Positions 3,965-34,516 of a stretch of DNA of 36,895 nucleotides are shown piece after piece; the first letter of the stretch is position 1; every line of letters begins with the position of its first letter. The DNA is from Verrucomicrobiota bacterium. Lineage in GTDB: Bacteria; Verrucomicrobiota; Verrucomicrobiia; Chthoniobacterales; UBA10450. Where the stretch lies: assembly GCA_003221195.1 (NCBI GenBank), contig QHQO01000023.1:1-36895 (forward strand), given 5' to 3'. Made by a program: the position numbers and the translations under genes. The notes below the pieces were generated by a model. It had not been told where the DNA came from, ran no database searches, and worked only from the letters and a program-made list of their open reading frames with translations.

Positions 3965-4501
3965 TCATCCGAGCGCTTCCTCAAGCCTTTGTGTCAGTTC
4001 CGGCTTCTGATTTCTGAATGAGCATTCCCGTGAGATTTTCTCCTGTAACTTTATCAATCCGGCGAGCAAAGCCTCCGGACGGGGCGGGCAACCAGAAATA
4101 TAAACGTCAACTGGCAAAAGCTGGTCGATCCCCTGCAACACGGCATACGAGCGATACATCCCGCCGGTAGAAGCGCACGCGCCCATGGCAATCACCCACT
4201 TCGGCTCCGGCATTTGCTCGTAAATTCGTTTTACCGCCAGCGCCATTTTGTACGTAACAGTGCCGGCCACAATCATCACATCGCATTGCCGCGGTGAAAA
4301 CCGCATCACTTCGGCACCGAATCGAGCAATATCGAAGCGCGATGCAGCTGCCGCCATTAACTCGATCGCGCAACAGGCCAGGCCCATCGGCATTGGCCAA
4401 AGCGAGTTCTTTCGCACCCAGTTCAGCGCCGCATCGAAGCGCGTAAAAATCACGTTGCCTTCGATCTTTGAATCGTATGCTGTCGCGCGTGTTTCCGACA
4501 T
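3965..4501 (-). CDS. nuoB: NADH-quinone oxidoreductase subunit B
   Basis: NuoB holds the terminal [4Fe-4S] cluster N2 of complex I, which passes electrons to quinone. All four expected ligands are visible in the 178-residue protein: Cys43-Cys44 in [10 protein letters not shown], Cys109 in [15 protein letters not shown] and Cys138 in [13 protein letters not shown]. Length is normal and the protein looks functional. It is followed by nuoC on the same strand. nuoA, which usually precedes nuoB, is not present: the 225 bases upstream hold only degenerate repeats and the cysD promoter. This is therefore a separated nuoBC pair. Confidence 0.96.
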
Positions 4502-4680
4502 AAGAAAAGTTAAGATTGGGCGTTAAGCACGCAACCCCAATAATAAGCTCCAAATCCCAAGTTCCAAACAAACTTCAAAAGTCCACACCGAAAATGAGAG
4601 TGCATTATTGATTTGAGTATTGAAGGTTGGGATTTCCTTGAAATTTGGGGCTTGAGCTTTGGAACTTTGCTCTCCCTTTC
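4502..4680. repeat. Degenerate inverted-repeat region between nuoB and cysD
   Basis: No gene is present. The region holds runs such as CTCCAAATCCCAAGTTCCAAA (near 4548-4568) and, about 60 bases on, complementary-sense runs such as GGTTGGGATTTCC and GAAATTTGGGGC (4625-4650). Together they form an imperfect inverted repeat with a short-period internal pattern. The style matches other low-complexity repeats in the window (26313-26518, 5551-6010). The nuoB promoter should lie here, but no convincing boxes were seen for it. Confidence 0.4.
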
Positions 4681-4709
4681 TTGCAGCATGCGCCTGCCGA
4701 TTGTATAGA
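4681..4709 (+). promoter_or_regulatory. Predicted sigma-70-type promoter for cysD
   Basis: TTGCAG at 4681-4686 and TATAGA at 4704-4709 are separated by 17 bases. The predicted start lies about 10 bases before the cysD ATG at 4727, giving a very short leader with no clear Shine-Dalgarno sequence. Confidence 0.45.
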
Positions 4710-4726
4710 ACCGCCCCTACCTAGAC

Positions 4727-5545
4727 ATGACCAATATCCAGCGCACTCATCTCGACGATCTCGAGAATCAAAGCATCTTTATTTTCCGCGAGGCATATCA
4801 CGCTTTCAAAAATATCGCCATGCCCTGGTCGATGGGTAAGGATTCAAACGTTCTCGTCTGGCTCGCGTGCAAGGCTTTCTTCGGCCGCGTTCCCTTTCCG
4901 GTTCTGCATATCGACACGACATACGAATTCCCGGAGATGCTGGAATTCCGCGAATGGGCAACGAAACACCATAACCTCAATCTCATCGTCAAAATCAATA
5001 CCGAAGCCCGCGCCCGTGGGATTGGTTATGAGACACACGACCCCGTAACCGTCACGCACGAGTTAAAGACCGTAGCCTTGCAGCAGGTGCTTGCAGAGTA
5101 CAAATGGGACGCGCTGATCACCGGCATTCGACGCGACGAAGATCCAACTCGCGCGAAGGAGCGATATTTTTCGCCGCGCAACGCGCAGTTTGAATGGGAC
5201 TACAAGGATCAGCCTCCCGAATTCTGGAGCCAATTCGTAACCACAGCCGCCAAAGGAGAACATGTTCGCATCCAACCCTTGCTCGATTGGACCGAGGTGG
5301 ATATCTGGCGCTACATCCAGAAGGAAAACATACGAATTCCGCAAATGTATTTCGCTCGAAACGGAAGACGATTTCGGTCGTTGGGCTGTCGTCCCATCAC
5401 GCAACCGATCGAGAGCGCTGCTTCGACCATCGACGAGATCATTGCCGAACTGGAAGCGACGAAAACGACTGAGCGCGCCGGCCGTGCGCAGGACCATTAC
5501 GAACGGAATGCGATGCAGAAGTTGAGGGCGAAAGGATTCCTGTAA
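4727..5545 (+). CDS. cysD: Sulfate adenylyltransferase subunit 2 (ATP sulfurylase small subunit)
   Basis: CysD forms adenosine 5'-phosphosulfate from sulfate and ATP together with the GTPase CysN. The 272-residue protein shows the PP-loop as [18 protein letters not shown] (residues about 34-51), where most CysD have SGGKDS or SIGKDS. It also has the family segments [50 protein letters not shown] and [14 protein letters not shown]. Length is close to the usual 300. The partner cysNC lies downstream but is separated by an inserted four-helix-bundle gene, an unusual interruption of a normally adjacent pair. Confidence 0.96.
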
Positions 5546-5550
5546 TTGCA

Positions 5551-6010
5551 GATACTGGATACTTGATGCTGGATACTGGATGAATTATCGCAACCTCGAG
5601 GTGTGGCAATTGGCGCGGGAACTGGTGATCGCGATTCACAACATGACTTTGATCAAGTTGCCCAAATTCGAAATGGTTGAAGAGGGCGGCCAGATTCGCC
5701 GCTCGATTAAGTCTGTAAAGTCCAACATTGTCGAAGGCTATGGACGTCGCCGATACAAACAGGAATTCGTGAGGTTCATTGATTACGCACTCGCTTCGTG
5801 TGATGAAACCGCAGATCACTTGGACACGCTCGTTGCCACGAACTCATTAACGGACTCTGCAACGATTGATGACCTCACGAGAAAGGTCGATGAGCTCGGA
5901 CGAAAATTGAACCTGTTCTTACAAAGTATCGAACGCGGCCATATTTCAGAAAAGTGAACAACTCGGCGCCAAGTTCTTCATCCAGTATCAAGAATCCAGT
6001 ATCCAGTATC
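5551..6010. mobile_element. Candidate mobile cassette: four-helix-bundle gene in 34-bp terminal inverted repeats
   Basis: Bases 5551-5584 and the reverse complement of 5977-6010 are identical at 31 of 34 positions. Both arms are built from the unit GGATACT/GATACTGGAT. The arms bracket one gene, the four-helix-bundle protein, whose ATG lies within the left arm. The 460-bp unit sits between cysD and cysNC, which normally adjoin. No transposase is encoded, so movement would need help in trans. The inverted repeats are directly visible; mobility is inference. Target-site duplications were not evident. Confidence 0.6.
5580..5957 (+). CDS. Four-helix-bundle protein, S23/23S rRNA intervening-sequence family
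   Basis: Protein of 125 residues with the hallmark opening [21 protein letters not shown], then [55 protein letters not shown] and a final amphipathic helix. This is the four-helix-bundle family first found in 23S rRNA intervening sequences and related to the accessory protein (Avd) of diversity-generating retroelements. Its molecular role is not established; a basic surface suggests nucleic-acid binding. The ATG lies in the left inverted repeat, and its TGA stop overlaps the GTG start of cysNC by 4 bases (GTGA), implying translational coupling. No reverse transcriptase or variable repeat is nearby, so it is not a retroelement component here. Confidence 0.9.
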
Positions 6011-7873
6011 GGCAGCAGCCCGACGCTGCGCGTCGTTTTCGTCGGTCATGTCGATCACGGGAAGTCCACGCTGATCGGTCGCATTTTGCATGACACCGGT
6101 TCTTTACCCGAAGGGAAAGTCGAAGAGATAAAAAAGGCATGCGCAGCAGAGGGAATGGGATTTGAATTCGCTTTTTTGCTCGACGCGCTTCTTGAGGAAC
6201 AAAAACAAAACGTCACGATCGACACGACGGAAATTCCTTTCCGAACGCCGCGACGCCAATACGCCATCATCGACGCGCCTGGGCACAAGGAATTCTTAAA
6301 GAACATGATCACGGGCGCGTCGAGAGCGGACGCCGCCATCCTGGTGATCAGCGCAGACGAAGGTGTGCGCGAACAGAGCCGCCGTCACGCCTACCTGCTG
6401 AGCATGCTTGGTGTCAAGCATCTCATCGTGGTCGTAAACAAGATGGATCTTGTGGATTACTCTGAGAAACGATTTCGCGAGATCGAGCAGGAATATCGAA
6501 AGTTTCTTCGCGAGCTTGGGTTGGAAGCACGGACGTTTATTCCCGCGTCCGCCAGGGAAGGCGAGAATGTCGCGCGGGCAAGTGCGAAAATGAAGTGGTA
6601 CTCGGCGGCGAGTGTTCTCGAAGCACTGGATTCGCTGGGACCGCAGGAGCGCGATGTCGATCTTCCACTTCGCTTTTGCGTTCAGGATGTTTATCGCTTC
6701 GACGGGCGCCGGATTATTGCAGGTCGGATCGAGACGGGCACCCTAAGGGAAGGGGACCAGCTGGTGTTCTCACCGGCTAACAAGTCGTCCGTCGTTGCTA
6801 GGATCGAGCGTTGGAATGTGCAGGAAACTGGCCCGGCCGTCGCTGGAGATTCGATCGGGATCGCCCTTGCCGAACAGATTTTCGTCGAGCGCGGCTATGT
6901 CGCATCGCGCGAAAACGAAACACCGATTGAGGCAAATCGTTTTCATGCGGACCTTTTTTGGATCGTGCGCGAGCCGCTGCGCGTTGGACATTTGTACAGC
7001 CTCCGGTTGGCAACTCAGGACGTGAAATGCGAGGTCGTATCGATCGAGCGAGTCATGGATTCTTCGACACTGGAGACGAAGAGCGGCGGACCCGAACAAC
7101 TAGAGCGAAACGAGATCGGCACACTTACAATCCAGACTCGTGGCCCACTCGTCATCGACAACCACGACCGCATTCCGAACCTCGGCCGGTTCGTCATCAT
7201 AGACGACGGACAAATTTGTGGGGGCGGAACGATTTTCGGGGGCGTCTACACAGATCGCACCGTTACAAAAAGCAAAAATATCTTTTGGACCGAAGGAAAA
7301 ATTACCGCAGGCGCGCGAGCAATGCGGAGCGGTCATCGAGGAGCTGTGATCTGGTTAACCGGGCTTTCCGGTGCGGGGAAATCGACCATCGCGCAATCGC
7401 TCGAACGCGACCTGTTTCTTCTCGGTATGCATACGTACGTGCTCGACGGTGACAACATTCGGCATGGGTTGAACTCAAACCTTGGCTTCTCGCCAGACGA
7501 CCGCGTAGAAAACATTCGGCGCGTAAGCGAAGTGGCCAAACTCATGGCGGACGCCGGCACAGTAGTGATTACTGCGTTCATCTCGCCTTATCGGATGGAT
7601 CGGAGTCGCGCGCGAGAGATTGCATTGGAGGGCAATGCAGAGTTTATCGAGGTGTTTGTTGATGCGCCGCTGGAGGTTTGCGAGGCGCGCGACCCTAAAG
7701 ATCTCTACAAAAAAGCGCGAGCCGGCCAGATTCGTGAGTTCACCGGCATCGACGCACCCTATGAAGCCCCGGAGGACCCGGAGATTGTTGTGCATACGGA
7801 TCGGCAAAGCGTTGACGAATCGGTAGCGACGATCCTGGAGCAGTTATTGCCGCGATTGAGAGCTGTTGAATAG
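5954..7873 (+). CDS. cysNC: Bifunctional sulfate adenylyltransferase subunit 1 / APS kinase
   Basis: Fusion of the CysN GTPase and CysC adenylylsulfate kinase, 639 residues, making PAPS with CysD. The CysN part shows G1 GHVDHGKST (about residues 31-39), G3 DAPGHKEF (about 107) and G4 NKMD (about 162), followed by beta-barrel domains. The CysC part starts near residue 460 with P-loop GLSGAGKST (about 470-478) and continues with [19 protein letters not shown], which includes the phospho-acceptor Ser, and [18 protein letters not shown]. The only usable start before G1 is GTG 5954, overlapping the stop of the upstream cassette gene. Residues about 8-20 ([15 protein letters not shown]) are encoded by the right inverted repeat and look foreign to the family. 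Confidence 0.95.
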
Positions 7874-26312: not shown

Positions 26313-26518
26313 AATGACGAAGGCCTAATGACGAATGACGAAGGAATGACAAAATCCGAAGCTCGAAACGCGCGCGCGCAAGATTTATCTTGGAACGGCA
26401 GCCTCATGCGGACTGTTTGCGAGCAGCAGCCGGAGAGTAAGCTAGCGATTTATTTGTGGTTTTTCGCCATTCGAGCTTCGGATTTTATTCGTCATTCGTC
26501 ATTCGAATTTCGTCATTT
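26313..26518. mobile_element. MITE-like inverted-repeat element between mntH and the stress-protein gene
   Basis: The left arm 26313-26367 and the reverse complement of 26470-26518 share long matches, including AATGACGAATGACGAA and AAAATCCGAAGCTCGAA. About 100 unrelated bases lie between the arms. It carries no protein gene of its own; a 67-codon frame across it merely translates the GACGAAT repeat. The arms form a potential large hairpin. It lies directly before the universal stress gene. Confidence 0.55.

Positions 26519-32335: not shown

Positions 32336-34516
<2,181 letters not shown>

Follow-up and report, generated by a model that had tools for sequence, protein, structure and literature searches.

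The window analysed here is a stretch of 36,895 nucleotides and forms contig C98 of a draft genome of 3.1 Mb, 86.8% complete. Within it a small one-gene cassette lies between cysD and cysNC, arranged as follows.

4727..5545, + strand: cysD, the upstream gene (NF003587, 353.5 bits, cut-off 195)
5547..5584, + strand: left arm, about five GGATACT-type heptamers, reaching into the start codon of the IVP gene
5580..5957, + strand: IVP/S23 four-helix-bundle gene, 125 aa, matching the PF05635 and TIGR02436 profiles
5954..7873, + strand: cysNC, the downstream gene, with a GTG start overlapping the IVP stop
5977..6014, - strand: right arm, the reverse complement of the left arm, within the cysNC frame, apparently as its N-terminus

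An earlier note on this DNA had described inverted repeats of GGATACT units around a single gene of the S23/IVP family in the cys operon, and that description holds. On recounting, 5551-5584 and 5977-6010 are identical as inverted repeats at 31 of 34 bases; profile searches place one S23/IVP (PF05635) gene between the arms and cysD and cysNC on either side; and the units, read off each strand, are GGATACT-like in both arms (AGATACT, GGATACT, TGATGCT, GGATACT and GGATGAA in the left arm; CGATACT, GGATACT, GGATTCT, TGATACT and GGATGAA in the right arm on the other strand). An inverted-repeat tool extends the arms to 5547-5584 and 5977-6014, 38 nt that are 89% complementary. Their inverted-alignment score of 28 was reached by none of 3000 decoy placements across the window (99th percentile 14, maximum 25), and these decoys, together with the control on PIN-domain genes described below, rule out a chance origin of the arms.

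One nucleotide separates the cysD stop from the left arm in its extended form (5 nt in the 34-nt form), the IVP ATG at 5580 lies inside this arm, and the IVP gene ends in a stop codon that overlaps the GTG at 5954. Given that this GTG is the first start of the cysNC open reading frame, and that by eye the frame has no further ATG, GTG or TTG ahead of the GHVDHGKS motif, we read the right arm as the N-terminus of CysNC. Domestication of the cassette by the cys operon, in which the right arm would have become the N-terminus of CysNC, is plausible from this arrangement of reading frames. That cysD and cysNC normally touch, as the earlier note had it, applies to part of the 19 junction loci that we read: at the seven without IVP sequence, the cysD stop overlaps an in-frame cysNC ATG in six, which carry a repeat array only, and the two genes stand 2 nt apart in the single empty one (by eye). 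The cassette lies outside any 23S rRNA gene, sited as it is between cysD and cysNC, and no transposase domain is present, the single gene called between the arms matching 23S_rRNA_IVP alone in Pfam.

The IVP protein

The open reading frame at 5580-5957 scores 88.3 bits against PF05635 (cut-off 33.8) and 87.5 bits against TIGR02436 (cut-off 24). Its predicted structure has four helices (pLDDT 93.7); the best match of the model in the Protein Data Bank is chain B of 2gsc (TM 0.85, rmsd 1.3, Foldseek), and it aligns with 2rld at a TM of up to 0.73. Five chains are listed in each of these two entries, and the S23p of Xanthomonas is described as a homopentamer of toroidal structure in PMC4990558, where S23p proteins are given no known function. 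A more distant match is Avd (4dwl; TM-score 0.73, Foldseek E 0.069), which PF05635 is stated to resemble in PMC10053308. The window's protein has 19 K+R against 19 D+E, and so is not basic. Compared with its counterpart in genome G016, dN/dS is 0.12 (dS 0.19). Beyond this pair, a ratio was obtained for only 12 of 57 others, with medians of 0.07-0.09 and high dS. By these substitution ratios the IVP gene evolves under purifying selection.

Spread of the arm-gene-arm layout

The window's genome holds ten PF05635 matches. By eye all ten genes are framed by inverted short-period repeats with mostly different units, and eight of the nine with enough flank passed our arm test (L016 fails; L015, at a contig end, was excluded). 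The test aligns the 200 nt before the domain with the reverse complement of the 350 nt behind it and compares the score with up to 20 decoys from the same locus. In the genus, 34 of 35 genomes have a PF05635 gene, and in the phylum 220 of 288 sampled genomes do. The search for further copies that the earlier note had called for found the same layout at other IVP genes in all three sets that we assembled. In the genus, a non-random set that includes orthologs and combines the ten loci of the window's genome, the best locus per genome, cysD-junction loci and 60 loci taken by hand from those listed for eleven genomes, 82 of 103 IVP genes scored above the 99th percentile of their decoys and 69 above every decoy, leaving 21 below the threshold (117 loci gave 105 with an IVP reading frame, 12 having none, and 2 with short flanks were dropped). 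Among the best-scoring phylum matches, again non-random, the corresponding counts are 18, 9 and 11 of 29, and in the multi-phylum set, a non-random choice of the best 80 of at least 586 matches to one conserved peptide pattern, they are 56, 28 and 20 of 76. As a control, PIN-domain genes of the same genus exceeded the 99th percentile in 2 of 29 cases and every decoy in 1. Short flanks removed 4 of 80 multi-phylum, 1 of 30 phylum and 1 of 30 PIN loci. At one locus, L123, the IVP gene is framed by repeats of about 26 nt with small internal palindromes, not plain heptamers (by eye).

Plasmids carry the family too. A tblastn search of a plasmid collection with one IVP protein matched 42 records, among which Nostoc (16), Calothrix (4) and Riemerella (4) were the most frequent. 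Eight plasmid IVP genes were fetched and seven, all cyanobacterial, were tested (L298 was left out); four have heptamer arms, of the types TAGGGAG, AACAGGG, GGTGTAG and GACAGGT, and Nostoc plasmids are among the carriers. The element with GACAGGT-type arms (L300) lies on plasmid pANA02 of Anabaena sp. 90, within a type I-D CRISPR operon and flanked by cas6 and cas4. When one Anabaena element was searched against the plasmid collection for near matches, it returned only its own record. In Calothrix, two plasmids that carry one and the same IVP match also have the neighbouring gene order in common, which indicates a shared segment, not two insertions.

Period, polarity and coupling of the arms

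GGATACT units are indeed present in the cassette, but as the defining mark of such arms this word, on which the earlier note relied, is too narrow. The heptamer word changes between elements, with 36 distinct words among 41 multi-phylum elements. In arms over the threshold and at least 20 nt long (median length 31-32 nt), identity at a lag of 7 is 0.58 in left and 0.57 in right arms of the genus (77 elements), and 0.65 and 0.67 in the multi-phylum set (51 elements); the remaining lags up to 13 give 0.21-0.35. Seven is the best-scoring lag for 52 of 77 genus and 44 of 51 multi-phylum elements, eight for 13 and 6, respectively. Compared with the remainder of their loci, IVP genes show a tenfold density of period-7 arrays, which number 99 in the 70.6 kb at 80 IVP genes and 45 in the other 320.7 kb. 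Since octamer arrays are likewise enriched (16 near IVP genes, 4 elsewhere), a period of seven belongs to most, not all, elements.

The units also have a direction. Multi-phylum units in the left arm, read along the coding strand, conform loosely to G-[TG]-N-[GA]-T-[CT]-A, and among elements with a period-7 identity of at least 0.5 (41 of 56 multi-phylum, 53 of 82 genus), 37 of 41 multi-phylum elements fit a matrix trained on these same units better than does their own reverse complement, as do 47 of 53 genus elements scored on that multi-phylum matrix. We considered reading this polarity in the left arm as a Shine-Dalgarno sequence; the multi-phylum unit pattern bears no evident resemblance to one.

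The two arms of one element coevolve, as several comparisons of their bases bear out. In ten orthologous elements at an operon junction termed J2 (see below), the identity of a left arm is 0.858 to its own right arm and 0.734 to orthologous left arms, a difference to which cutting the arms by best local alignment contributes, as it favours identity within an element. Matched double changes in these elements number 149, whereas permuting the right arms gives a mean of 41; this permutation ignores phylogeny and reached the observed value in 1 of 500 runs. Variant units stand in the same order in both arms, with a gain of 0.147 against at most 0.023 in resampled arms (genus) and 0.098 against 0.027 (multi-phylum), figures that carry the same alignment bias toward within-element identity. 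Similarity of the proteins is correlated with similarity of their units, both in non-orthologous genus elements (r 0.34) and in the multi-phylum set (r 0.23), with 0 of 500 permutations reaching either value (54 and 44 elements of period-7 identity of at least 0.45); common descent could produce this correlation without binding.

Templated correction of quasipalindromes is a known mechanism, and template switching at replication might on its own keep the arms identical, with the protein having no role. That arms are closer within an element than between orthologs would follow from it, as would mismatches that are symmetric, G·U pairs being about as frequent as A·C pairs. Left unexplained are the density of arrays at IVP genes, the unit polarity common to several phyla and the lack of arms at PIN genes, and we judge it quite unlikely that template switching is the sole cause.

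The same mismatches bear on pairing as RNA. According to PMC4990558, the S23p family is encoded in 23S rRNA intervening sequences that have complementary borders and are cut by RNase III, and the arms of the cassette could pair as RNA too; the cassette could be an mRNA version of such a sequence, its arms pairing in the cys transcript and an RNase III cut separating the cysD and cysNC messages. If an RNA stem were under selection, G·U mismatches should exceed A·C mismatches. Over 152 elements the counts are 161 G·U and 164 A·C, and they are near equal in every set (genus 73 and 67, multi-phylum 59 and 64, phylum 32 and 34), so that a hairpin kept by selection as RNA is unsupported. Moreover, an RNA stem requires no period of 7 nt, and an Rfam search of 4450-6200 gave no match up to E 1. 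We give this RNA explanation little credence.

Filled, array-only and empty junctions

Three operon junctions, the one between cysD and cysNC and two others (J1 and J2), occur in filled, array-only and empty states among relatives. For the cys junction, the earlier note had asked whether relatives might have it empty, and it is indeed gene-free or empty in some of the 19 loci from 18 genus genomes (rows L063 and L065 of G024 were dropped). An IVP gene of the window's type with GGATACT arms is present at three, one of them internally deleted, and five have another IVP subfamily with GGATTGC-like arms, one cut by a contig end; the IVPs of this other subfamily at L046 and L049 matched over only 273 and 201 nt and are perhaps broken. 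One further locus is cut inside a GGATTGC-like left arm, three keep arms around a decayed or deleted gene, six have a one-sided, gene-free CAACGYY array and one is cleanly empty. In the cysD tree, G023, holder of the other IVP subfamily, is the sister of the window's genome (support 98/96), and the empty G021 pairs as sister with the filled G001 (99/97), whose row is 42% filled.

J1 joins an ABC ATPase and a permease gene (by eye) and was compared in 30 of 34 matching genomes. Four carry IVP elements, 15 are empty and 23-42 nt long, a further two in the same size range have a short array, and nine have 73-232 nt of other sequence, mostly with heptamer arrays. J1 is filled in the window's genome and has no IVP in G023, which is 98% identical in the neighbouring gene. 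J2 was readable in 28 of 30 loci (L388 and L404, with no upstream match, were dropped): ten have an IVP element, six are empty with 12-24 nt, one has a solo arm, four a solo repeat of another kind and seven another one-gene insert. No target-site duplication was identified at the cys, J1 or J2 junctions, where filled and empty forms are too diverged for one to be read.

Some observations on these junctions were made by eye. The CAACGYY arrays without IVP occur at two operon junctions (L048, L051, L054-L056 and L064; L346, L350, L361, L363, L365 and L368), and those at the cys junction lie in-frame, as an N-terminal leader of CysNC. At J2, a single GIY-YIG-like gene replaces the IVP element at L377, L378, L381, L387, L395, L401 and L403; several of these inserts have GTCATTCCGAGCGAAGTCGAGG-type repeats at one or both ends, and they are perhaps a second kind of one-gene insert. 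At L378 the GIY-YIG-like gene is seemingly nested in the start of an IVP element.

Movement and place in operons

Similar elements also occur at unrelated sites. In the window's genome, L014 and L016, which have hexamer-like arms, are 77% identical over 415 nt, and their flanks have no blastn match to each other beyond the arms. The genus contains 102 such locus pairs, not independent of one another, in which the element is similar and the flanks differ; in the best 25 of them similarity begins at most 64 nt before the domain, and in 21 of these it ends at most 75 nt past the domain end. The nearest full-length relatives of the window's IVP at another site are 61-63% identical and lie at an exbB/exbD-like junction (neighbours named by eye) in three genomes, where the arms have GATNCGG instead of GATACTG and all three exceed the 99th percentile of their own decoys. 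Partial matches at contig ends in G003 (68% over 73 residues) and G002 (62% over 45) were left unread. Near-identical copies at different sites were not found in the genus, the best non-orthologous pair being 85.5% identical. The proposal of the earlier note that the unit is a mobile element was not refuted by the checks that the note itself had set, and it is supported by similar elements at unrelated sites and by presence and absence at three junctions. These genome comparisons give good support to movement over evolutionary time but revealed none that is recent.

Among elements over a score of 14 with readable neighbours (genes taken as longest open frames), the upstream gene points the same way as the IVP gene in 71 of 78 cases in the genus and 42 of 52 in the multi-phylum set, and both neighbours do so in 66 of 78 and 34 of 52. 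The left arm starts a median of 7 nt (genus) or 10 nt (multi-phylum) past the upstream stop. Survival alone could account for this co-orientation.

Such features might instead mark a vertically kept regulatory cassette of the host, whose IVP protein would sense or couple the operon's translation and which would move rarely or have moved only in the past. Purifying selection on the gene, the overlap of the IVP stop with the cysNC start, the shared strand of both neighbours in those 66 of 78 genus elements and the absence of near-identical copies at different sites would all fit. Yet the cys junction of relatives may be empty, hold only an array or hold a different IVP subfamily, the latter even in G023, sister to the window's genome in the cysD tree, and similar elements occur in unrelated operons. 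We find a purely regulatory cassette improbable.

Stray heptamer repeats

Tandems of GGATRCT occur in 34 of 35 genus genomes, including some in which the window's gene lacks a close relative (G019, one of these, has 18 matches). The idea that GGATRCT hairpins are satellites of which the window's gene is master is unsupported, as the tandems are present without relatives of the gene. A comparison of five IVP-free with five IVP-bearing genomes gave 1 against 4 stray arrays per 400 kb, all 4 in one genome; in so small a sample the two groups could not be told apart by their stray arrays.

These tandems, along with the gene-free arm pairs and single arrays seen in the window, in its genome and at the cys, J1 and J2 junctions, are what would be expected if the heptamer palindromes were older, separate repeats of a REP- or STRR-like kind and the arms merely the target into which IVP genes drop. 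Related IVP genes at unrelated sites, however, bear similar units, and the similarity in the best 25 pairs starts where the arms sit. Gene-free forms may also be deletion products, as an arm pair with a short remnant at L052 suggests. That the arms are only a target seems to us unlikely.

The window itself contains further repeats. Gene-free inverted heptamer arrays with CGAATGA-like units lie at 26318-26345 and 26484-26514 before a universal-stress-protein-like gene (by eye), and their unit resembles by eye that of the IVP element L018 of the same genome. In the region 32850-32950, a CTCAACC-type array (32909-32947) within a thiC-like open reading frame is translated in frame and looks like a palindromic insert. 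Upstream of cysD, at 4536-4690, an inverted CCAAGTT-like pair was seen by eye, which the array scan did not report.

A model for the element

We consider it probable that the cassette is one copy of a widespread, palindromic mobile element with a single gene, acting at the level of DNA, and that the IVP ring binds the heptamer ends of its own element. Each end would be an array of about four to five heptamers, the two inverted relative to each other, with one IVP/S23 gene between them. The IVP protein, pentameric if it follows its solved relatives, would bind the arrays as double- or single-stranded DNA, join both ends and so aid the copying or moving of the element. We infer this binding from the co-occurrence of gene and arrays, the coevolution of the arms and the presence of no other gene. 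As no catalytic domain is seen in the element, catalysis would have to come from elsewhere, and cutting or copying may be carried out by a host or other trans-acting enzyme. Insertion, or survival, right after the stop codon of an operon gene and in the direction of transcription would let the gene be expressed without needing its own promoter. The right arm of the cys cassette would then have been turned into the leader of CysNC.

A bolder proposal, possible but to our minds doubtful, is that these elements form a class spanning many phyla and plasmids whose ends are set by period and polarity and not by sequence, each subunit of a pentameric IVP ring taking one heptamer in register, and whose debris is a main source of intergenic tandem heptamers. 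Under this proposal, joint homogenisation of the two arms would leave the word itself free to change.

Relation to known systems

Among the closest known systems is the intervening sequence of 23S rRNA genes, for example in Coxiella and Leptospira, with which the cassette has in common the protein family, size, complementary borders and a scattered distribution; that of Coxiella is 428 nt long with an S23p reading frame (PMC4990558). In contrast, the cassette sits in an operon between protein genes, its arms are heptamer arrays and such cassettes bear no sign of selection for an RNA stem. Small size, terminal inverted repeats and presence or absence in relatives recall insertion sequences and MITEs, whereas the cassette has no transposase domain, no target duplication was found and the end sequence is not common to the elements. 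REPINs are likewise paired, inverted, hairpin-capable short repeats, dispersed in genomes and tied to a gene family, as described in PMC3116915. The cassettes differ from the REPIN/RAYT system in their tandem heptamers, in a word that differs per element and in having IVP instead of the RAYT transposase. The arms also resemble the STRR repeats of cyanobacteria, which are tandem, intergenic heptamers. In Beggiatoaceae, TAACTGA repeats are tandem and intergenic; they resemble the unit pattern of IVP arms by eye only, and the main text of PMC4679880 does not contain the terms four helix, S23, intervening or 23S.

The protein family and the rRNA intervening sequences were known, and the heptamer-ended operon cassettes appeared to be undescribed: no description of the link between IVP genes and heptamers was found among the open-licence PMC papers listed by our searches, as judged by titles and the starts of abstracts. 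The link joins S23p proteins without known function to tandem heptamers without a clear role, and makes both testable, through binding of the arrays by the IVP ring and movement or copying of the DNA between arrays. Tandem heptamers are called the most abundant intergenic repeats of prokaryotes, their function without a clear clue, in PMC6344855. With its layout found, usually with other heptamer words, in many bacterial groups, the element looks like widespread, little-described mobile DNA.

The predicted fold is also like that of Avd, the accessory protein of diversity-generating retroelements, whereas no reverse transcriptase lies beside the IVP gene. The draft genome, at its present completeness, has two RVT_1 matches, L096 on contig C117 and L095 on contig C119, away from the window. 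They encode proteins of 462 and 480 aa, respectively, that are group-II-intron-like by eye, and it is possible that these reverse transcriptases are the trans-acting enzyme for the element.
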